Origin: Clostridium sp. AT4
GTDB lineage: Bacteria; Bacillota; Clostridia; Lachnospirales; Lachnospiraceae
NCBI RefSeq assembly: GCF_001517625.2
Contig: NZ_LN999828.1
Coordinates: 326,303-390,302, forward strand
Direction of reading: 5' to 3'
Length of the DNA: 64,000 nt
The position numbers were made by a program, and so were the translations under genes. The notes beneath the pieces are model-generated. The model was not told the origin of the DNA, searched no databases, and was given only the letters and a program-made list of their open reading frames with translations. This document shows positions 7,561 through 63,641 of the stretch, in pieces (positions within the stretch are counted from its first letter, which is position 1; every line of letters begins with the position of its first letter).

Positions 7561-9072
7561 ATGAACAATCGGATAGACGCAATCTATGCAAGACAATCGG
7601 TAGACAAAAAGGACAGCATTTCCATTGAAAGCCAGATTGAATTTTGCAAATACGAGTTGAAAGGCGGTAACTGCAAGGAATACACAGACAAAGGGTACAG
7701 CGGCAAGAACACAGACCGTCCGAAGTTTCAAGAACTGGTGCGGGACATCAAGCGGGGCTTGATTGCAAAGGTCGTGGTTTACAAGCTCGACCGTATCAGC
7801 CGTTCCATTCTGGACTTTGCCAACATGATGGAGCTGTTCCAGCAGTACAATGTGGAGTTTGTGTCCTCTACGGAAAAGTTTGATACCTCCACGCCGATGG
7901 GACGGGCCATGCTGAATATCTGTATCGTGTTCGCCCAGCTTGAACGGGAAACGATACAGAAGCGGGTAACGGACGCTTACTACTCCCGCAGTCAGCGGGG
8001 CTTTAAGATGGGCGGGAAAGCCCCTTACGGCTTCCATACGGAGCCTATCAAGATGGACGGTATCAACACAAAGAAGCTGGTGGTAAACCCGGAGGAAGCG
8101 GCCAATATCCGGCTGATGTTTGAGATGTACGCCCAGCCCACAACTTCCTACGGGGACATTACCCGGTACTTTGCCGAACAGGGGATTTTGTTCCATGGCA
8201 AAGAGCTGATACGCCCCACGCTGGCGCAGATGTTACGCAATCCTGTCTATGTGCAGGCAGACCTTGATGTGTACGAATTTTTCAAAAGTCAAGGTACAGT
8301 CATTGTCAATGACGTTGCCGATTTTACGGGCATGAACGGCTGCTATCTGTATCAAGGGCGAGATGTAAAGGCCAGCAAGAAAAACGACTTAAAAGACCAA
8401 ATGCTGGTACTGGCTCCCCATGAGGGTATCGTCCCCTCCGACACCTGGCTGACCTGCCGCAAGAAGCTGATGAACAACATGAAAATCCAGTCTGCCCGGA
8501 AAGCCACCCACACATGGCTGGCAGGAAAAATCAAGTGCGGGAATTGCGGGTATGCTCTTATGAGTATCTACAATCCCTCCGGCAAACAGTATCTCCGCTG
8601 CACGAAACGGCTGGACAATAAAAGCTGTCCTGGCTGTGGGAAAATCATCACTTCGGAACTGGAAGCGGTTGTTTATCAGCAGATGGTAAAGAAGCTGGCA
8701 AGCTACAAGACGCTGACAGGAAAAAAGAAAGCGGCAAAGGCAAACCCGAAAATCACCGCCCTGCAAGTGGAACTTGCCCATGTAGACAGCGAGATTGAAA
8801 AGCTGGTGGACAGTCTGACGGGGGCAAACAATGTCCTGTTCTCCTATGTGAATGTGAAGATAGCGGAACTGGACGGGCGCAAGCAGGAACTTCTGGCAAG
8901 GATAGCGGAGTTGACTGTGGAGGCCATCAGCCCGGAACAGGTCAGCCAGATTTCCGGCTACCTCGATACCTGGGAGAATGTATCTTTTGATGACAAGCGG
9001 CGTGTGGTGGATTTGATGATCACCACCATAGCCGCCACAAGCGACAGCTTGAACATCACATGGAAAATCTGA
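7561..9072 (+). CDS. Large serine recombinase (integrase/excisionase of the element)
   Basis: A 503-residue protein. The N-terminal resolvase domain starts YARQSVDKKDSISIESQ with the catalytic Ser at about residue 13, and contains KLDRISRS further on. A recombinase domain follows (about 170-290, with GKAPYGFH). A zinc ribbon (CGNCG...CTKR...CPGCG, about 325-360) and a coiled coil (about 400-450) complete the usual plan. Such enzymes integrate and excise the element at short cores. It lies next to the right end, as is typical, and its product is the best candidate for the junctions at 1,508/1,509 and 9,132/9,133. GGAG precedes the start. It is shorter than TnpX of Tn4451 (about 700). Confidence 0.95.
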   Translation: MNNRIDAIYARQSVDKKDSISIESQIEFCKYELKGGNCKEYTDKGYSGKNTDRPKFQELVRDIKRGLIAKVVVYKLDRISRSILDFANMMELFQQYNVEFVSSTEKFDTSTPMGRAMLNICIVFAQLERETIQKRVTDAYYSRSQRGFKMGGKAPYGFHTEPIKMDGINTKKLVVNPEEAANIRLMFEMYAQPTTSYGDITRYFAEQGILFHGKELIRPTLAQMLRNPVYVQADLDVYEFFKSQGTVIVNDVADFTGMNGCYLYQGRDVKASKKNDLKDQMLVLAPHEGIVPSDTWLTCRKKLMNNMKIQSARKATHTWLAGKIKCGNCGYALMSIYNPSGKQYLRCTKRLDNKSCPGCGKIITSELEAVVYQQMVKKLASYKTLTGKKKAAKANPKITALQVELAHVDSEIEKLVDSLTGANNVLFSYVNVKIAELDGRKQELLARIAELTVEAISPEQVSQISGYLDTWENVSFDDKRRVVDLMITTIAATSDSLNITWKI

Positions 9073-9132: not shown

Positions 9133-9966
9133 CGGATGCGTAAATATCTGATGGCAGATGAAACTCGAGTTCAGGTACTGAATGAGCCGGAGCGCAATCC
9201 TGAAACAGATTCCTGGATGTGGCTCTTCCGCAGTGGAGAAGATGGGCTTCCGCCGATCCTGCTCTATCATTACACAGAGACGAGGGCAAAGTTCCATGCA
9301 GCATCTTTCCTGAATGGGTTCCGTGGATATCTGGAGACCGACGGATACCAGGGTTATAACAATCTGCCGGATATCAAACGCTGCTCTTGCTGGGCACATG
9401 TGAGACGTTATTTCACAGATGCCATACCGAAAGGGAAGGAGTATGATTACAGCCTTCCGGCGGTGCAGGGAGTACAATTCTGCTCCAAGCTGTTTGATTG
9501 TGAGCGGTACTCAAAAGCAAAAAATCATACTGCGGAGCAGAGAAAACAGTTCCGTCTTGAAAAGGAGAAGCCGATACTGGAGGCATTCTGGAATTGGCTG
9601 GATCAACAGCGTCCAAACAAGGGAACCCGTTTGGCGAAAGCGGTGAACTATGCCCAAAATCGGAAAGACACCCTGATGACCTATCTGGAAGACGGTCATT
9701 GCAGTTTATCCAATAATCTTAGCGAGAATGCAATCAGACCATTCACTGTTGGGCGGAAAAACTGGCTGTTCAGTGCCAGTCCGAAGGGAGCTGCCTCTAG
9801 CGCTATTGTGTATACAATGGTTGAGATGGCAAAAGCGAATGACCTGAATACCTACAAATATCTGACATACCTCTTATCACAGCGACCAGACGCTAAAATG
9901 TCAGATGAACAGCTGGAACAGCTTGCCCCATGGAGCGAGACTGCGAAAGCGAACTGTCAAAACTAA
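9133..9966 (+). pseudogene. tnpC: IS66 transposase TnpC, C-terminal catalytic part
   Basis: This continues the frame broken at 1,508. It starts with R-M-R-K-Y-L-M-A-D-E-T, where the Asp of MADET is the first catalytic residue of the IS66 DDE domain. The second part includes GYLETDGYQGYNNL with another catalytic Asp, and the end carries the NNLSENAIRPFTVGRKNWLF block with the catalytic Glu. The C-terminal IS66 tail (LTYLLSQRP...APWSE) is intact. It has no start of its own apart from an ATG at 9,136 without a good ribosome binding site, so it is probably not translated until the inserted element excises. Confidence 0.92.
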
Positions 9967-57488: not shown

Positions 57489-57536
57489 ATATGCAAAAAA
57501 TTAAATGCTTGACGATAAAAAAACTCAATAATGGAC

Positions 57537-57567
57537 TTGACAAAATATAAAAATTAGGATAAGCTAA
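57537..57567 (+). promoter_or_regulatory. feoA promoter with overlapping TTAG-N6-CTAA box
   Basis: TTGACA (57,537-57,542) and a weak -10 TAAGCT (57,560-57,565) are 17 bases apart. TTAGGATAAGCTAA (57,554-57,567) overlaps the -10. A second copy of the same TTAG-N6-CTAA pattern stands before feoB. It resembles half of a DtxR/IdeR iron box more than a classical Fur box and probably marks an iron repressor site. Confidence 0.6.
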
Positions 57568-57647: not shown

Positions 57648-57860
57648 ATGAATTTATCAGAGGCTAAAGAAGGAAAAGAATATATTGTCAAAGATATATT
57701 GACAGATGATGAAGAATTAAATGAGTTTTTGTTTTCTCTGGGATGTTACAGCGGAGAGCCGATTACTGTGATCACGCATCGAAAAGGCGGCTGCGTGGTA
57801 TCTATCAAAGATGGCAGATATAATATTGATACTGATTTAGCGCAGGCTATTTCAATATAA
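57648..57860 (+). CDS. feoA: FeoA-family ferrous iron transport protein
   Basis: A 70-residue SH3-like protein, MNLSEAKEGKEYIVKDILTD, with LFSLGCYSGEPITVITHRKG and VSIKDGRYNIDTDLAQAI, the pattern of FeoA. FeoA is cytoplasmic and supports FeoB. ATG at 57,648 was chosen to fit the family; a GTG at 57,633 with a better-placed GGA is an alternative, adding five residues. feoB follows after a small terminator-like hairpin. Confidence 0.88.
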   Translation: MNLSEAKEGKEYIVKDILTDDEELNEFLFSLGCYSGEPITVITHRKGGCVVSIKDGRYNIDTDLAQAISI

Positions 57861-57865
57861 AAATG

Positions 57866-57888
57866 GTGATTTTGATCACTGTTTTTTT
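57866..57888 (+). terminator. Small terminator-like hairpin between feoA and feoB
   Basis: GTGAT (57,866-57,870) pairs with ATCAC (57,875-57,879) and a run of seven T follows. It could reduce read-through from feoA to feoB. Confidence 0.55.
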
Positions 57889-57899
57889 AAAATGATGGG

Positions 57900-57913
57900 T
57901 TAGCTCACGCTAA
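57900..57913. promoter_or_regulatory. Second TTAG-N6-CTAA box, upstream of feoB
   Basis: TTAGCTCACGCTAA has the same palindromic frame as the box at 57,554-57,567 and lies 26 bases before the feoB start. An extended palindrome TTAGC-TCAC-GCTAA is visible. Confidence 0.55.
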
Positions 57914-57938
57914 TCTGAGTATGAAGGAGGAAACATCA

Positions 57939-59936
57939 ATGAGAATTGCGTTGACAGGAAATCCCAATAGCGGAAAAACAACCATGTACAATGCGCTCAC
58001 AGGAAGAAATGAACGTGTGGGAAACTGGGCTGGAGTTACAGTAGAGAAAAAAGAGAGTCCGATCAAGAAAGGATATTACGGCGGTTCGGAGGAACTGATT
58101 GCGGTAGATTTACCGGGAGCCTATTCTATGTCTCCGTTTACATCGGAGGAGAGTATTACCAGCAGTTATGTAAAAAACGAAAATCCGGATGCGATTATTA
58201 ATATTGTGGATGCAACTAATTTGAGCAGAAGTTTGTTTTTTACAACGCAGCTTCTGGAACTGGGAATCCCGGTGGTAGTTGCTCTTAATAAAAGCGATAT
58301 TACGGAGAAGAAAAAAACAGAAATTGATGTAAAGAAATTAGCGGATAAATTAGGCTGTCCAGTTATTCAGACTGTATCTATAACCTCAGGACATGAAGGA
58401 TTAAAAGAGGTTGTAAATCATGCAGCAGCATTAAAAGGACGTGTGCAGAAAGCGCCATATGTGCAGGCGGATATTGATCTGCAAGACAAAGCGCAGGTTG
58501 AGGCAGCCGACAGGAAGCGCTTTGAATTTGTAAATGGGATTGTAAAAGCAGTAGAAAAAAGAAAAGTTTTAACAAAGGATAAAAATAAGCAGGACAGCAT
58601 CGATGCGGTGCTTACCAATAAATTTGTTGGAATCCCAATCTTTGCAGTGGTTATGTTTGGCGTGTTTTACATATCCCAGTCTACGGTTGGAACATGGATT
58701 GCGGACTGGTTAGTTGGCTGTATTGAAGCTTTTCAGGGCTGGGTTGCAGGTTTGGTGGAAGGAGCAAATCCATTCCTTCAGGCGCTTTTGGTGGATGGCA
58801 TCATTGGAGGCGTAGGCGCAGTAGTCGGTTTCCTGCCTCTGGTAATGGTGATGTATTTCCTGATTGCTCTTTTGGAAGACTGTGGATATATGGCTCGCGC
58901 TACTGTGGTTTTAGATCCGATTTTTAAGAGAGTTGGTTTATCAGGAAAGTCTGTAATCCCTATGGTGATCGGAACAGGATGCGCTATTCCGGGTATCATG
59001 GCATGCCGTACCATCCGGAACGAAAGAGAAAGAAGAGCAACCGCCATGCTGACGCCGTTTATGCCGTGCGGAGCAAAGCTCCCGGTGATCGCGTTATTTG
59101 CAGGGGCGTTCTTCGCAGACGCTTCATGGGTAGGGCCGACCATGTATCTGGCTGGAGCTGTGTTGATTTTCCTGGGCGCATTATTGGTAAAAAAGATTAC
59201 CGGATATAAATTCCGTAAATCGTTCTTTATCATTGAACTTCCGGAATACAAAATTCCGAGTTTAAAACGGGCAACCCTTTCTATGCTTTCCCGCGGTAAG
59301 GCATACATTGTGAAAGCAGGAACGATCATTTTGGTATGTAACACTGCAGTGCAGATTATGCAGAGTTTTAACTGGCAGTTCCAGGTAGTGGAAGAGGGAA
59401 TGGAACATACGTCTATCCTTGCCTCGATTGCTTCTCCTTTTGCAGTACTTCTGATCCCGCTTGGATTTGGCGTATGGCAGCTTGCAGCGGCAGCAATCAC
59501 AGGTTTTATTGCAAAAGAGAACGTGGTCGGCACCCTGGCAGTTGTTTATGGACTTACGAATTTTATTGATACGGATGAGCTGGCGTTAGTTGGCGGAGCA
59601 AATGAAGTGGCAATGGTTATGGGACTTACGAAAGTCGCGGCACTTGCTTATCTGATGTTTAATCTTTTCACGCCGCCTTGTTTTGCAGCCCTTGGTGCGA
59701 TGAATTCTGAAATGCAGGATAAAAGATGGCTGTGGGGAGGAATTGCATTGCAGTTAGCTACCGGTTATACAGTTGCATTTTTCGTATATCAGGTAGGTAC
59801 GCTGATAACAACAGGAACCCTTGGAAACGGTTTTGTTCCGGGACTGATCGCAGTGGCTGCATTTGCCGGGGCATTGCTTGTGCTGATCCAGAGAAATGAG
59901 AAAGCTTTCAGCGCCGAGTATCGTCTCCACGCATAA
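57939..59936 (+). CDS. feoB: Ferrous iron transporter FeoB
   Basis: A 665-residue membrane GTPase. The N-terminal G domain has GNPNSGKTT (about 7-15), VEKKES, DLPGAYSMSP and NKSD; a GDI helical region follows (about 165-230), then about eleven membrane segments from 235 on with the duplicated Gate motifs, for instance VGFLPLVMVMYFLIALLEDC and PVIALFAGAFFAD. It imports Fe2+. ATG at 57,939 was chosen because GGAGG is eight bases upstream. It is the main gene of an iron island reaching to 63,641. Confidence 0.96.
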   Translation: MRIALTGNPNSGKTTMYNALTGRNERVGNWAGVTVEKKESPIKKGYYGGSEELIAVDLPGAYSMSPFTSEESITSSYVKNENPDAIINIVDATNLSRSLFFTTQLLELGIPVVVALNKSDITEKKKTEIDVKKLADKLGCPVIQTVSITSGHEGLKEVVNHAAALKGRVQKAPYVQADIDLQDKAQVEAADRKRFEFVNGIVKAVEKRKVLTKDKNKQDSIDAVLTNKFVGIPIFAVVMFGVFYISQSTVGTWIADWLVGCIEAFQGWVAGLVEGANPFLQALLVDGIIGGVGAVVGFLPLVMVMYFLIALLEDCGYMARATVVLDPIFKRVGLSGKSVIPMVIGTGCAIPGIMACRTIRNERERRATAMLTPFMPCGAKLPVIALFAGAFFADASWVGPTMYLAGAVLIFLGALLVKKITGYKFRKSFFIIELPEYKIPSLKRATLSMLSRGKAYIVKAGTIILVCNTAVQIMQSFNWQFQVVEEGMEHTSILASIASPFAVLLIPLGFGVWQLAAAAITGFIAKENVVGTLAVVYGLTNFIDTDELALVGGANEVAMVMGLTKVAALAYLMFNLFTPPCFAALGAMNSEMQDKRWLWGGIALQLATGYTVAFFVYQVGTLITTGTLGNGFVPGLIAVAAFAGALLVLIQRNEKAFSAEYRLHA

Positions 59937-59956: not shown

Positions 59957-60133
59957 ATGGCAGATTTGTTGGTAACAGGTATCCTGCTGTTGATTATAGG
60001 CGCTGCGGCTGTTTATATATGGAAAGCAAAGAAGAGAGGCGTTAAATGTATAGGCTGCCCATCTGCAGGAAAATGTTCGGGAAAAGAAGGACATACAGTG
60101 TGCAGCTGCGGATGCCATAGTGCAGAAAAATAG
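59957..60133 (+). CDS. FeoB-associated Cys-rich membrane protein
   Basis: A 58-residue protein: one membrane helix (LLVTGILLLIIGAAAVYIW), a Lys/Arg stretch, then Cys at KCIGCPSAGKC and VCSCGCH. This fits the FeoB-associated Cys-rich family, found right after feoB, probably involved in metal handover at the membrane. AAAGGA precedes the start. Distance to feoB is 20 bases. A terminator follows. Confidence 0.88.
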   Translation: MADLLVTGILLLIIGAAAVYIWKAKKRGVKCIGCPSAGKCSGKEGHTVCSCGCHSAEK

Positions 60134-60148
60134 GAAATTTCAGGGAAA

Positions 60149-60179
60149 GCCCGCACTTTGGAAAAGGTGTGGGCCTTTT
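60149..60179 (+). terminator. Terminator after the feo genes
   Basis: GCCCGCAC (60,149-60,156) pairs with GTGTGGGC (60,167-60,174) with one mismatch, followed by CTTTTA. Confidence 0.7.
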
Positions 60180-60209
60180 ATATAAAACACAGGAAATGGA
60201 GTGAGGTCT

Positions 60210-60695
60210 GTGAAAAGCTGCCAGAAAAATGAAAATCCGGATTTTTCCAGGACACAAATGGAAAAAGAAACAATTTTCCGTAAGTTAAGAGCGTGTGGAG
60301 GCCGTATTACGGCACAAAGGAAAATTCTTCTGGATATTATTTTGGAAGAAGAATGTGTCTGCTGTAAAGAAATTTATTATAAAGCGATAAAAAAAGACCC
60401 TGCGATCGGAATAGCGACAGTCTATAGAATGGTCAGGTCGCTGGAAGATATAGGGGCGATTCGAAGAAACAAAATGTATGAGATCCAGTATGGAAAGGAG
60501 AGGATTGAAGAAAATGCATTGGCGGACAAAATACTTGCCAGACACTCTTTTTTTCTAAAAATCCTGGTAGAGGCGGGAGTTGATCAACAGCAGGCAGAAA
60601 AAGAGGCCAGTATGCTGGAGTATATCTTGTCGGATGAAAGTTTTGATAAACTGAAAGTATATATGGAGAAAGGAACGTGGGAAAATGGTAAATGA
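60210..60695 (+). CDS. Fur-like winged helix joined to a DtxR/MntR-like dimerization domain
   Basis: A metal regulator of about 160 residues with mixed origin. The first half (about 20-95) is Fur-like: RITAQRKILLDIILEE and GIATVYRMVRSLEDIGAI, the classic Fur recognition helix. The second half lacks the Fur HxH and CxxC sites. Instead ARHSFFLKILVEAGVDQQ and EKEASMLEYILSDESFDKL follow DtxR/MntR (RH...FL...GV...A...EH.LS). The DtxR His after the Glu is Tyr here, and the Cys ligand is Ser, so metal binding must differ. GTG at 60,210 with GGAGTGAGG upstream is likely; 60,201 (ATG) is also possible. It is followed by overlapping genes of the same island. Confidence 0.8.
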   Translation: MKSCQKNENPDFSRTQMEKETIFRKLRACGGRITAQRKILLDIILEEECVCCKEIYYKAIKKDPAIGIATVYRMVRSLEDIGAIRRNKMYEIQYGKERIEENALADKILARHSFFLKILVEAGVDQQQAEKEASMLEYILSDESFDKLKVYMEKGTWENGK

Positions 60696-60819
60696 GATTA
60701 TAATTGCTGTACTTTTGATTCTGGTATTTACAGGAATCCGTTCCGGCACAAAGCACTTTAAGGGGCAGGGAGGATGCTGTGGCGGTTCTTCGCAAATCAG
60801 GACAAAAAGAAAAAATTGA
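60685..60819 (+). CDS. Small membrane anchor with Cys pair, upstream frame of an HMA protein
   Basis: A 44-residue peptide overlapping the end of the Fur/DtxR gene. It has a membrane helix (VNEIIIAVLLILVFTGI) and then HFKGQGGCCGGSS. In relatives I recall, this segment is fused to an HMA domain in one protein of about 110-120 residues. Here the HMA domain follows in the -1 frame. At the junction lies A-AAA-AAT (60,810-60,816) in the zero frame, directly before the stop TGA. A -1 slip there would give a 117-residue fusion. Confidence 0.7.
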   Translation: MVNEIIIAVLLILVFTGIRSGTKHFKGQGGCCGGSSQIRTKRKN

Positions 60820-61037
60820 AAAATATCATAGGTCAGAAGAGGGTACAGATCGAAGGCATGACCTGTGAACAGTGCAAAAATCGGGTTGAAAACGCATTGA
60901 ACCGTTTGGAAGGGGTATCTGCAAAAGTGAATCTGAAGAAAAAAACGGCAGTTGTATCTATGGAAAAAGAGGTAGAAGATATGCAGCTCCAGAAAGCGGT
61001 TGAGCAGGCGGGGTATAAGGTAATACAAATACGGTGA
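60774..61037 (+). CDS. Heavy-metal-associated (HMA) domain protein, CopZ-like
   Basis: The HMA domain reads VQIEGMTCEQCKNRVENALN, then LEGVSAKVNLKKKTAVVS and AVEQAGYKV; the two Cys bind a soft metal ion. The frame opens at an ATG at 60,774, but this has no space for a ribosome binding site. A TTG at 60,816 overlapping the stop of the preceding small gene (ATTGA) would give a 73-residue protein of usual chaperone size. A -1 frameshift from the membrane-anchor gene is the third option. It probably delivers metal to the P1B ATPase downstream. Confidence 0.85.
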   Translation: MLWRFFANQDKKKKLKNIIGQKRVQIEGMTCEQCKNRVENALNRLEGVSAKVNLKKKTAVVSMEKEVEDMQLQKAVEQAGYKVIQIR

Positions 61038-61091
61038 TATGATTGCGGCACGCCATTTGTTGAGAAAATATTTCATTAAAAGAAAAATACT

Positions 61092-61120
61092 TTGACTGTA
61101 TATATATGAGAGAATATAAT
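61092..61120 (+). promoter_or_regulatory. Promoter of the ATPase operon
   Basis: TTGACT (61,092-61,097) and TATAAT (61,115-61,120) with a 17 bp spacer, 26 bases before the 26-residue peptide. Confidence 0.85.
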
Positions 61121-61145: not shown

Positions 61146-61226
61146 ATGAAACAGCATAGGTTATGGGCATGGGCAATGATTGTTTGTCTCGTCATGTTAT
61201 TCTATACCGGAAAAAAACACAAATAA
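61146..61226 (+). CDS. 26-residue membrane peptide
   Basis: A very short frame MKQHRLWAWAMIVCLVMLFY followed by TGKKHK, preceded by a good site (AGAGGTG) and a consensus promoter. It is one hydrophobic helix with basic ends, like peptides that associate with transporters. It lies before the DUF6110-like and ATPase genes. I do not know a function; its good signals suggest it is real. Confidence 0.6.
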   Translation: MKQHRLWAWAMIVCLVMLFYTGKKHK

Positions 61227-61256: not shown

Positions 61257-61553
61257 ATGGATAGTTTAAAATTAAAGAACCTTGCATTGTTTGCAGGCGG
61301 AGTATTATTTGGAACGGCAGGTGTGAAAATCCTTTCCAGTAAGGATGTGAAAAAAGTATATGTGGAAGGAACAGCAGCAGTTCTTCGAGCAAGAGATTGT
61401 GTGATGAAGACCGCTGAGACCGTTCAGGAAAATGCAGAAGATATCCTGGCAGAAGCAAAGCAGATCAATGAGAGGCGCGCCGCGGAAGAAGCTGCCTCTG
61501 TACAGGAAGATACAGTAGAGGATCATGCTGATCCTGAAACAGAGGAAGCGTAA
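61257..61553 (+). CDS. DUF6110-like protein, P-type ATPase-associated
   Basis: A 98-residue protein with an N-terminal membrane-like segment (NLALFAGGVLFGTAGVKIL), then KDVKKVYVEGTAAVLRARDC and an acidic helical tail. It matches what I recall of the DUF6110 family, which sits before P1B ATPases in gut Clostridia. Role unknown; perhaps a small subunit. GGAGG lies upstream of its ATG. Its stop joins the TTG start of the ATPase (TAATTG). Confidence 0.7.
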   Translation: MDSLKLKNLALFAGGVLFGTAGVKILSSKDVKKVYVEGTAAVLRARDCVMKTAETVQENAEDILAEAKQINERRAAEEAASVQEDTVEDHADPETEEA

Positions 61554-63641
61554 TTGAAATTCACTATAAAGCATGAGATTCCGGGAAGAATCCGTATTCA
61601 TATGGAACAGAAACAAATGTCTTATAAAGAGGCCGATACATTACTGTATTATTTGGATACGCTGGAATATGTCACGCAGGCAAAGGTTTATAGAAGGACG
61701 GCCGATGCCTGCGTTTGCTTTTCAGGAAAACGAGAGCTGTTGATTCAGGCTTTAAGAAAATTCCGATATACGTCTGTAAAAGTTCCGGATGAAGTGTTAA
61801 CAAATTCTGGAAGACAGTTGAATGATATTTATCAGGAGAAACTGATTGGTAAAGTTCTTTTTCATTATGCCGGTAAAATTTTTCTGCCATATCCGGTCAG
61901 AAAAGCAGTAGTTTTATGGAAGGCTGTACATTATTTAAAAGAAGGCTGGAAGAGTCTTGCAAGGCGGAAGCTGGAAGTCGCAGTGTTGGATGCATCAGCT
62001 ATTGGCATTTCTGTTTTGCGAGGTGATTTTAATACGGCTGCTTCCGTTATGTTCCTGTTGGGAGTTGGAGAGACCTTGGAGGAGTGGACACATAAGAAAT
62101 CGGTAGGAGATCTGGCACGCAGTATGTCTTTGAATGTGTCGAAGGTTTGGCTGAAAAGTGAAGAACAGGAAGTACTTGTTGATTCCAGAAAAATCAAAGA
62201 AGGGGATAATATCGTAGTTCACATGGGGAATGTTATTCCTTTTGACGGGGTGGTATGCGAAGGCGAAGGAATGGTAAATCAGTCTTCTCTGACCGGTGAA
62301 CCGCTCCCGGTTTTGAAAAAGGCAGGAGGATATGTATATGCCGGAAGCGTTCTGGAAGAAGGGGAACTTACTTTTACTGTAAAAAAAGCCGGGGGTTCTT
62401 CTCGGTATGAGAAGATTGTTGAGATGATCGAGGAGTCTGAAAAGCTGAAATCTTCGTTGGAAGGAAAAGCAGAACGACTTGCAGATCGATTAGTTCCGGT
62501 GACCTTCGCAGGAACAGCTCTTACATGGCTCTTTACGCGAAATATCACGAAGGCTTTAGCTGTGCTTATGGTAGATTTTTCCTGTGCGTTAAAACTCACA
62601 ATGCCGATTGCGGTATTGTCTGCAATTCGTCAGGCAGGCTCTTATGATATTACGGTAAAGGGCGGAAAATTTTTAGAAGCGGTTGCAGAAGCGGAAACGA
62701 TCGTACTGGACAAAACAGGCACGCTTACAAAAGCTATGCCTACCGTGAAAATGATTGTTCCATTTTGTGAAGCAGGTGAAAATGAACTGCTTCGTATAGC
62801 GGCCTGTCTGGAAGAGCATTTTCCGCACTCTATGGCGAAGGCAGTAGTATCTGCGGCAAAAAAAGCAGGACTTGAACATGAGGAAATGCACTCGAAAGTG
62901 GAGTATATTGTAGCTCATGGTATTTCTTCCAGTATAGAGGGAAAACGTGTCTTTATAGGCAGTGCACATTTTATTTTCGATGATGAAAAATGTACTGTTC
63001 CGAAGGAATATCAGAAACAGTTTGAAAGCCTCCCGGAAGAATACTCTCATTTATATCTGGCGATAGACGGAGTTCTTGCAGCAGTGATCTGTATTGAAGA
63101 TCCGTTGCGGGAGGAAAGCGCGAGCGTAGTGAGAGCATTGAAAGAGGCAGGATTTCAGAAGGTTGTTATGATGACGGGAGACAATGAGCGTACAGCAGCG
63201 TTCATTGCCCGAAAGGCAGGTGTTGATGAGTACTACTCAGAGGTATTGCCGGAAGACAAAGCCATGTTTATTGAGAAGGAAAAATCCAAAGGAAAGAAGG
63301 TACTCATGGTAGGCGACGGGATCAACGATTCTCCGGCACTTTCAGCGGCGGACGCAGGGATTGCAGTCAGCGATGGGTCAGAACTTGCCAGAGAAATTGC
63401 AGACATTACGATTCCGGCTGATAATTTATATCAGATTGTGCGATTGAAGTATCTCAGTCAGGCATTGATGAGAAGAATAAACAGGAACTATAAAGAAATA
63501 GTGGGTATTAACACATTACTCATTCTTTTAGGAGTGGGAGGAATGATACAGCCTACGACTACTGCAATGTTCCATAATATGTCTACGATAGCAATCAGTT
63601 TGCAAAGTATGCAAAATCTTTCGGAAATAGAAGAAGTTTAA
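61554..63641 (+). CDS. P1B-type metal-transporting ATPase with non-CPx motif
   Basis: A 695-residue ATPase. N-terminal GRIRIHM... region (about 10-75) has an HMA-like fold without CxxC. Then SLTGEPLPVL (actuator), LDKTGTLTKAMP (phosphorylation Asp, about residue 385), EEHFPHSMAKAV, MMTGDNERTA and VGDGINDSPALSAADAG. The membrane motif normally CPC/SPC/CPH reads VDFSCALKLTMP, with no Pro. Such variants are seen in a large set of gut Clostridia. Metal unknown; the Feo context suggests Fe2+ or Mn2+ export, but a soft metal is possible given the HMA gene. Start TTG at 61,554. Confidence 0.92.
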   Translation: MKFTIKHEIPGRIRIHMEQKQMSYKEADTLLYYLDTLEYVTQAKVYRRTADACVCFSGKRELLIQALRKFRYTSVKVPDEVLTNSGRQLNDIYQEKLIGKVLFHYAGKIFLPYPVRKAVVLWKAVHYLKEGWKSLARRKLEVAVLDASAIGISVLRGDFNTAASVMFLLGVGETLEEWTHKKSVGDLARSMSLNVSKVWLKSEEQEVLVDSRKIKEGDNIVVHMGNVIPFDGVVCEGEGMVNQSSLTGEPLPVLKKAGGYVYAGSVLEEGELTFTVKKAGGSSRYEKIVEMIEESEKLKSSLEGKAERLADRLVPVTFAGTALTWLFTRNITKALAVLMVDFSCALKLTMPIAVLSAIRQAGSYDITVKGGKFLEAVAEAETIVLDKTGTLTKAMPTVKMIVPFCEAGENELLRIAACLEEHFPHSMAKAVVSAAKKAGLEHEEMHSKVEYIVAHGISSSIEGKRVFIGSAHFIFDDEKCTVPKEYQKQFESLPEEYSHLYLAIDGVLAAVICIEDPLREESASVVRALKEAGFQKVVMMTGDNERTAAFIARKAGVDEYYSEVLPEDKAMFIEKEKSKGKKVLMVGDGINDSPALSAADAGIAVSDGSELAREIADITIPADNLYQIVRLKYLSQALMRRINRNYKEIVGINTLLILLGVGGMIQPTTTAMFHNMSTIAISLQSMQNLSEIEEV

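Follow-up and report, generated by a model that had tools for sequence, protein, structure and literature searches.

Fur and DtxR stand in textbooks for two separate designs of metal-dependent repressor. Fur shows His/Glu/Asp metal sites and structural Cys pairs, and DtxR shows a primary metal site formed by Met10 (or Asp), Cys102, Glu105 and His106, with His79 belonging to a second site. In a passage on the DtxR family, Met10, Cys102 and Glu105 are included in the primary site (PMC10317159). A published DtxR consensus contains TTAG-N6-CTAA, according to an excerpt of PMC7762939, and a near form is given in a passage of PMC6701010. For Fur, the section on the operator structure of the M. gryphiswaldense protein gives Lys15, Thr17, Gln19, Arg20, Thr54, Tyr56 and Arg57 as DNA contacts, and H33A appears there as a mutant of one of its metal sites (PMC4506495). 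DUF6110 proteins occur mainly in Firmicutes, where their genes typically accompany those of P1B6 ATPases, and no regulator is named in the part of PMC9374683 that describes these units. The locus presented here, in a stretch of 64,000 nucleotides of Clostridium sp. AT4 (the window), contains a gene whose product joins a Fur-type head to a DtxR-type dimerisation half, and no report of such a Fur-DtxR chimera was found in the open-licence PMC literature.

The chimera shares with the Fur family (PF01475; Fur, PerR, Zur and Nur) the winged-helix half and the Fur DNA-contact residues, and its candidate operator has a 7-1-7 layout of Fur type; unlike that family, it has no Fur dimerisation and metal-binding half, it carries CxCC in the head, and its position at the promoter suggests activation. 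With the DtxR/MntR/IdeR family it shares the C-terminal dimerisation domain (PF02742), but it lacks the DtxR head, an intact primary metal site and the SH3 domain. The window likewise contains a DUF6110-P1B unit, whose ATPase is classed as P1B-type only and not to subtype; in contrast to the units of the published passage, this one has a candidate regulator. The head of the chimera is about 45-67% identical, over the aligned stretch, to Feo-linked CxCC Fur-like heads, with which it shares the feo/DUF6110/P1B setting, the Cys of CKEIYY, GxATVYRM and perhaps the proposed operator. These relatives end after the head or continue into a degenerate Fur-like tail or, in L076, into an HD domain, whereas the DtxR domain was found in the chimera only.

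The gene is part of a metal island at the end of the window, on the + strand, in which FeoA, FeoB, FeoB-associated, HMA, DUF6110 and P1B ATPase families are all matched, and the feo/P1B setting reported in the preliminary description is confirmed. The island shows the following features:
57554..57567, no strand assigned, DtxR-type box TTAGGATAAGCTAA in the feoA promoter (TTAG-N6-CTAA; probably not the site of the chimera)
57648..57860, + strand, feoA (PF04023)
57900..57913, no strand assigned, DtxR-type box TTAGCTCACGCTAA upstream of feoB (TTAG-N6-CTAA; probably not the site of the chimera)
57921..59936, + strand, feoB (TIGR00437)
59957..60133, + strand, FeoB-associated Cys-rich membrane protein (PF12669)
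60149..60174, + strand, terminator-like hairpin after the feo genes and ahead of the chimera gene (weak: 4 such sites in the region, 3.4 expected)
60210..60695, + strand, chimeric regulator of 161 aa (GTG start, GGAG 8 bases upstream, stop TGA at 60695; Pfam matches)
60774..61037, + strand, HMA metal-binding protein (PF00403)
61257..61553, + strand, DUF6110 protein, first family-matched gene behind the candidate operator (PF19605, 131.6 bits)
61554..63641, + strand, heavy-metal P1B-type ATPase, downstream of DUF6110 (TIGR01525, 495 bits)

An alternative GTG at 60201 gives a regulator of 164 aa, and the frame is open from either start to 60695; residue numbers of the chimera count from 60210. 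The reading frame that follows can start at 60685, within the 3' end of the chimera gene. Between 60685 and 61037 (+), a membrane/CCGGSS part and an HMA part are in two frames, and both belong to a single protein in two other loci (L055 and L056); the frame change is near an A run, at about 60800-60816, and is either a true frameshift, a programmed frameshift or a sequencing error. Immediately ahead of DUF6110, at 61146-61226 (+), there is a 26-aa frame, MKQHRLWAWAMIVCLVMLFYTGKKHK, with a similar frame in 24 of 65 DUF6110 upstream regions (window included); given this recurrence, the P1B operon probably encodes a conserved membrane micropeptide here. The genome has two places matching PF01475, the chimera and one on another contig, whose protein is closest to PerR models yet below their cut-offs. 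It also has two places matching PF02742, the chimera and, on another contig, a separate short DtxR with its four C-domain ligands intact.

Compared with Pfam, the whole chimera matches PF01475 FUR (43.5 bits, cut-off 23.1, E 4e-11) at profile positions 3-65 of 121 and PF02742 Fe_dep_repr_C (32.1 bits, cut-off 27, E 1.1e-7); the remaining six matches are all under their own cut-offs, and the FeoC model is not among them. Scanned alone, the N-half (60210-60518) shows FUR as the sole model above its cut-off (44.7 bits, against 23.1), five matches below cut-off and no match to any DtxR model. The C-half alone (60519-60692) shows Fe_dep_repr_C as its sole match (34.3 bits, cut-off 27, E 2.4e-8), and no FUR match, that is, no Fur C-terminal dimerisation domain in this Pfam scan. 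The DtxR N-terminal helix-turn-helix (PF01325), which is detected in a stand-alone relative, is matched neither by the whole chimera nor by the separate halves. Since each half passes the cut-off of its own family only, the Fur/DtxR chimera is, by these profiles, genuine, as was proposed in the preliminary description. Its parts are as follows:
60297..60479, + strand, Fur-type DNA-binding half, a winged helix spanning residues 30-90 that contains RITxQR and GIATVYRM (PF01475 match of the half alone; family alignment)
60354..60365, + strand, CVCC motif, Cys49, Cys51 and Cys52 (alignments; head census)
60504..60524, + strand, approximate fusion joint (tblastn ranges: homology to tailed relatives runs to about residue 103-106, DtxR homology from about 104)
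60522..60668, + strand, DtxR-type dimerisation domain Fe_dep_repr_C (PF02742 match of the half alone; ligand census)

The two halves have similar GC (0.39 and 0.40; window, 0.47), which says nothing about the joint. The sequences nearest to the C-half are stand-alone, short DtxR proteins from other genomes of its bacterial family, with 50-56% identity over the matched stretch and E values of 5e-13 (L154), 1e-11 (L054) and 4e-11 (L160 and L155). The DtxR of the same genome was rejected as donor of the C-half, its identity being only about 35%. Several similar short DtxR genes are found within tens of kilobases in single genomes (L162, L163 and L164; L157; L159; in G119, G067 and G223).

As far as its alignments tell, the head belongs to a Fur-like family, marked by CxCC and linked to feo loci, that is present in Lachnospiraceae and relatives. 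At E 1e-3, some match to the chimera is present in 257 of the 299 genomes covered in its bacterial family. Among the matches listed, the strong ones (down to 3e-33) nearly all span residues about 5-105 and a few are longer, such as that of G122, which extends to 145 with a tail that is not DtxR; the weaker ones at E 1e-3 include stand-alone DtxR proteins aligned to the C-half. The best 80 of at least 573 confirmed stretches, which may omit records near the genome of the chimera, belong either to Lachnospiraceae (Roseburia, Blautia, Lachnospira, Eisenbergiella, Fusicatenibacter and others) or to less exactly named records (Clostridiales, Eubacteriales, Bacillota, bacterium). In this best 80, feoB is directly upstream of the head gene, on the same strand, in 44 of the 80 named loci. 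Strong head matches are also found in three other families of the order.

Merging of identical cores reduced 148 loci, the window left out, to 120 distinct heads: 91 are tailed, 27 are tail-less, one is an HD fusion and one runs off its contig. The fusion (L076:5983-6876) has 297 aa, joins a Fur-type head to an HD (HD-GYP-like) domain and starts just within the end of feoB; in L055, an HD protein is encoded by a separate gene directly behind the head gene. The FUR match reaches profile position 111 in two of the seven tailed proteins scanned and stops at 63-79 in the other five, and the tail of the relatives is, from its sequence, probably a worn, degenerate Fur dimerisation domain. Across the 16 further species of its genus, frames with a match are 91-148 aa long, some with a stop within the matched stretch, and none of them covers the DtxR half. 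The chimera, a single sequence from one genome, is also the sole head-bearing frame among the DtxR frames of the collected loci that match its C-half. No second Fur-DtxR chimera was found among the matches listed in searches at E 1e-3 (299 genomes), 1e-8 (17), 1e-25 (392), 1e-10 (2) and 1e-31 (397), or in the best 80 of at least 573 confirmed stretches, differing thresholds at which a diverged head could be missed; these genome sets overlap, and all but the E 1e-10 set contain the genome of the chimera. Read from these comparisons, the protein belongs to a widespread head family and has had its dimerisation half swapped; it does not join two complete regulators.

In 47 stand-alone DtxR frames, His79, Cys102 and Glu105 are each present in 47 and His106 in 46; the chimera shows His, Ser, Glu and Tyr at DtxR positions 79, 102, 105 and 106, and the changes of Cys102 to Ser and His106 to Tyr read earlier from this gene are upheld by the census. 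Glu105 is the sole ligand of the primary site that is kept, plus His79 of the second site, and the ligands of the DtxR head are also gone. Since positions 102 and 106 are changed and the DtxR head is gone, the primary site cannot form as known; DtxR-type metal sensing by the chimera appears unlikely from these residues, and the earlier suggestion of metal sensing through an altered DtxR site is not supported. A stand-alone short DtxR (L170:2184-2579) has Tyr for His106 like the chimera, but keeps Cys102. The Fur metal sites, already described as missing, are indeed not found: the C-domain that holds most of their ligands is absent, and a Cys aligns at the His of the head. This residue, Cys49, takes the place that the His of HPDVEELY, the known H33 ligand, has in a solved Fur. 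Conservation among the 120 distinct heads is 118 for Cys52 (in CKEIYY), 98 for Cys49 and 80 for Cys51; two heads (L027 and L098) have Ser at the place of Cys52 and keep the other two Cys. Tailed relatives show extra linker or tail Cys at four columns (66, 70, 73 and 59 of 87), and the linker Cys are lost in the chimera. The CxCC motif of the head is the best candidate for the sensor. The contacts of M. gryphiswaldense Fur correspond to Arg32, Thr34, Gln36, Arg37, Thr70, Tyr72 and Arg73 of the chimera; these seven are identical save for a conservative Lys-to-Arg change and are invariant across a 14-row family alignment.

A dyad scan upstream of DUF6110 gives the palindrome TTGAKA-N5-TMTCAA, distinct from TTAG-N6-CTAA and readable as TGAKAAA-N-TTTMTCA, which we take to be the Fur-type 7-1-7 layout. 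A box of at least 10/12 is present upstream of DUF6110 in 32 of 40 regions of head-bearing loci (window included) and in none of 25 head-less regions (Fisher p 2.6e-11), and one of at least 11/12 in 17 of 40 and none of 25, respectively; the head-bearing counts are optimistic because the motif was discovered in those regions and then widened (K, M) after the first scoring, the strict form before widening reaching at least 10 in 22 of 40, and related genomes in the counts are not independent. Shuffles reach 10/12 in 9% and 11/12 in 0.4%. The head-less set was gathered after motif discovery and contains 80 genomes, 25 of them with DUF6110, selected for high completeness and for a best match weaker than 4e-10 in the E 1e-3 search, which makes a much diverged head possible. 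Upstream regions that share their final 60 bases entered the counts once, and loci repeating the genome of the chimera were excluded; the palindrome, geometry and half-site counts require a region of at least 120 bases, and the strict-form count has no length limit. Identity to the DUF6110 of the window is on average 58.7% in the head-less set, versus 65.6-67.9% in the head-bearing sets, and differing DUF6110 lineages may explain part of the contrast. The box is found in 25 of 32 DUF6110 regions near a head gene and in seven of eight far from one. Perfect 12/12 boxes number 25 in 1.57 Mb of loci: 10 are upstream of DUF6110, three are upstream of the head gene, five are near feoA, feoB or DtxR genes, and seven are near no gene looked for. 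The window contains these elements:
57512..57528, no strand assigned, possible weak second operator upstream of feoA (9/12; exactly 42 bases upstream of the DtxR-type box)
61060..61076, no strand assigned, proposed operator of the head, TTGAGAAAATATTTCAT (10/12 of the consensus; distal half complete, promoter-proximal half 4/6)
61092..61120, + strand, promoter of the DUF6110-P1B unit, TTGACT-17-TATAAT (first hexamer begins 32 bases after the operator start)

The score of the box at 61060 is one reached by those 9% of shuffles, and its spacing to the promoter is exact. A scan of its genome with at most one mismatch gives 30 places against 19 in the reversed control, with no clear further targets; the copy at 61060, with two mismatches, is outside that list. 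A box of at least 10 is located within 90 bases upstream of a DtxR-type box at 6 of 20 feoA sites and 12 of 66 head-gene sites, and at none of 48 feoB sites; in 11 of the 18 boxed feoA and head-gene sites, the spacing is 42, 43, 75 or 79 bases. One of eight head-less feoA sites, in genome G094 (L196), has an 11/12 box with a spacing of 79.

Activators usually bind upstream of the core promoter. A -10 scoring at least 5/6 is found at one constant distance from the box (box start +30 to +33, then a spacer of 16-18) in 22 of 31 boxed promoters, versus 7.6% at random places, and the box centre is thereby near -58, upstream of the core promoter. Seventeen of these 22 promoters have a -35 of 4/6 or less, and the window, whose P1B promoter is near consensus (11/12), is among the five with a better one. 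By its position, this fixed distance suggests an activator site; activation may matter less in the window, because its box is imperfect and its promoter nearly consensus. The sites of tail-less heads show a complete distal half in none of eight and a complete proximal half in six of eight, and those of tailed heads in 13 and 18 of 27, respectively. Distal half-site scores differ between tail-less and tailed heads (p 0.0015), in a comparison whose threshold of 9/12 admits chance sites and whose eight tail-less cases are all from one genus. This association fits a tail that dimerises the head, and for this reason the DtxR domain is read as a replacement dimeriser. A passage of PMC10317159 describes IdeR without its SH3 domain as a stable dimer without metal, and by analogy this fits a metal-free dimeriser role for the DtxR domain of the chimera.

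It is reasonably likely that the chimera is an activator of the DUF6110-P1B exporter operon, perhaps also of feo, dimerised by a borrowed DtxR domain. In place of the usual tail, the head in Clostridium sp. AT4 carries a DtxR-type dimerisation domain, through which a dimer would be held on the candidate palindrome at 61060; bound there, it would activate the DUF6110-P1B metal exporter operon, and perhaps also feoA from 57512, and the separate DtxR would repress feo via TTAG-N6-CTAA. Most tentative among these steps, it might be the CxCC thiols of the head, rather than the DtxR domain, that sense the signal (metal, Fe-S or redox). A Fur head with a DtxR dimerisation half, in a family with variable tails, suggests that recognition and dimerisation are separable parts and that the pairing half of such regulators is exchangeable while the DNA-reading half is kept. 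The chimera yields a proposed operator and a target, the promoter of the DUF6110-P1B exporter, and the CxCC motif of its head is a possible sensor replacing the usual metal sites.

The two DtxR-type boxes, taken in the preliminary description as operators of the chimera, bear on a different explanation, in which the protein is an altered metal-dependent DtxR-like repressor of feo acting at 57554 and 57900. Its C-half is of DtxR type, and the two sites match the TTAG-N6-CTAA palindrome exactly and lie in the feo region; they are the only two in the window (57554 and 57900), a number reached by 26 of 100 shuffles, and the genome contains 12 such palindromes against 64 in the reversed control. 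Two boxes in the window are not in themselves unusual, and it is the relatives that carry the case. In the best 80 of at least 573 stretches, the box is upstream of feoA in 15 of the 16 named loci having feoA, and upstream of feoB in 37 of the 47 whose feoB start can be read; 35 of the 80 loci have it ahead of the head gene, 33 of them among the 36 without feoB directly upstream. It is also at the feo promoters of head-less genomes (17 of 30 feoB loci; six of seven of the same island type), and it was rejected as operator of the head on this account, the Fur-type palindrome tracking with the head instead. With the DtxR head that reads such boxes absent (no PF01325 match), ligands 102 and 106 and those of the head lost, and a separate DtxR with intact C-domain ligands in the genome, a DtxR-like repressor of feo is very improbable.

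An accidental fusion that no longer works as a regulator, its swapped tail and weakened box reflecting a decaying system, would account for the presence of the chimera in one genome only among the matches listed and for the imperfect boxes of the window (10/12 and 9/12), and the near-consensus P1B promoter could work unaided. It is unlikely, given an intact frame, the DNA-contact residues kept, a next reading frame that begins (60685) within the end of the gene, and a C-half only about 50% identical to the nearest relatives found; this last value means that the fusion did not happen very recently, provided that no closer donor has gone unsampled. Quite improbable is a DtxR half that pairs with the DtxR of its own genome, in mixed dimers or by blocking, and links two iron circuits: the identity between the two C-halves is only about 35%, as opposed to PF02742 being a dimerisation domain with exactly one other copy found in the genome and to a weak Fur-type site and a DtxR-type site that are separated at feoA by 42 bases. 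A FeoC-like accessory protein of FeoB without action on DNA is scarcely credible. Such a role would suit a small winged-helix protein with a Cys cluster in feo operons, with feoB directly upstream in more than half of the named loci (44 of 80, best 80 of at least 573); against it, no Pfam FeoC match is present, the Fur DNA-contact residues are kept in 14 aligned family members, and the palindrome tracks with the head. Possible, if doubtful, is a broader reading of the head as a free module in the metal circuits of Lachnospiraceae and relatives, working alone or combined with a degenerate Fur tail, with an HD signalling domain or, in the chimera, with a DtxR dimeriser; metal sensing would have moved from the tail to the CxCC of the head, the regulator would now be an activator, and in Clostridium sp. 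AT4 the DtxR half could pair with the DtxR of the genome.

Two further observations concern the surroundings of the chimera gene. The feoB of the window (feo island, 57648-59936) shows 72-85% identity to feoB of scattered other genera and only about 37-50% to feoB found beside heads in its own genus, a pattern that suggests a second feo type or island transfer. At the other end of the window, IS66-type transposase pieces, recognised by eye, at 230-1733 and 9136-9966 flank other mobile-looking genes, and 7561-9072, between them, looks like a site-specific recombinase.
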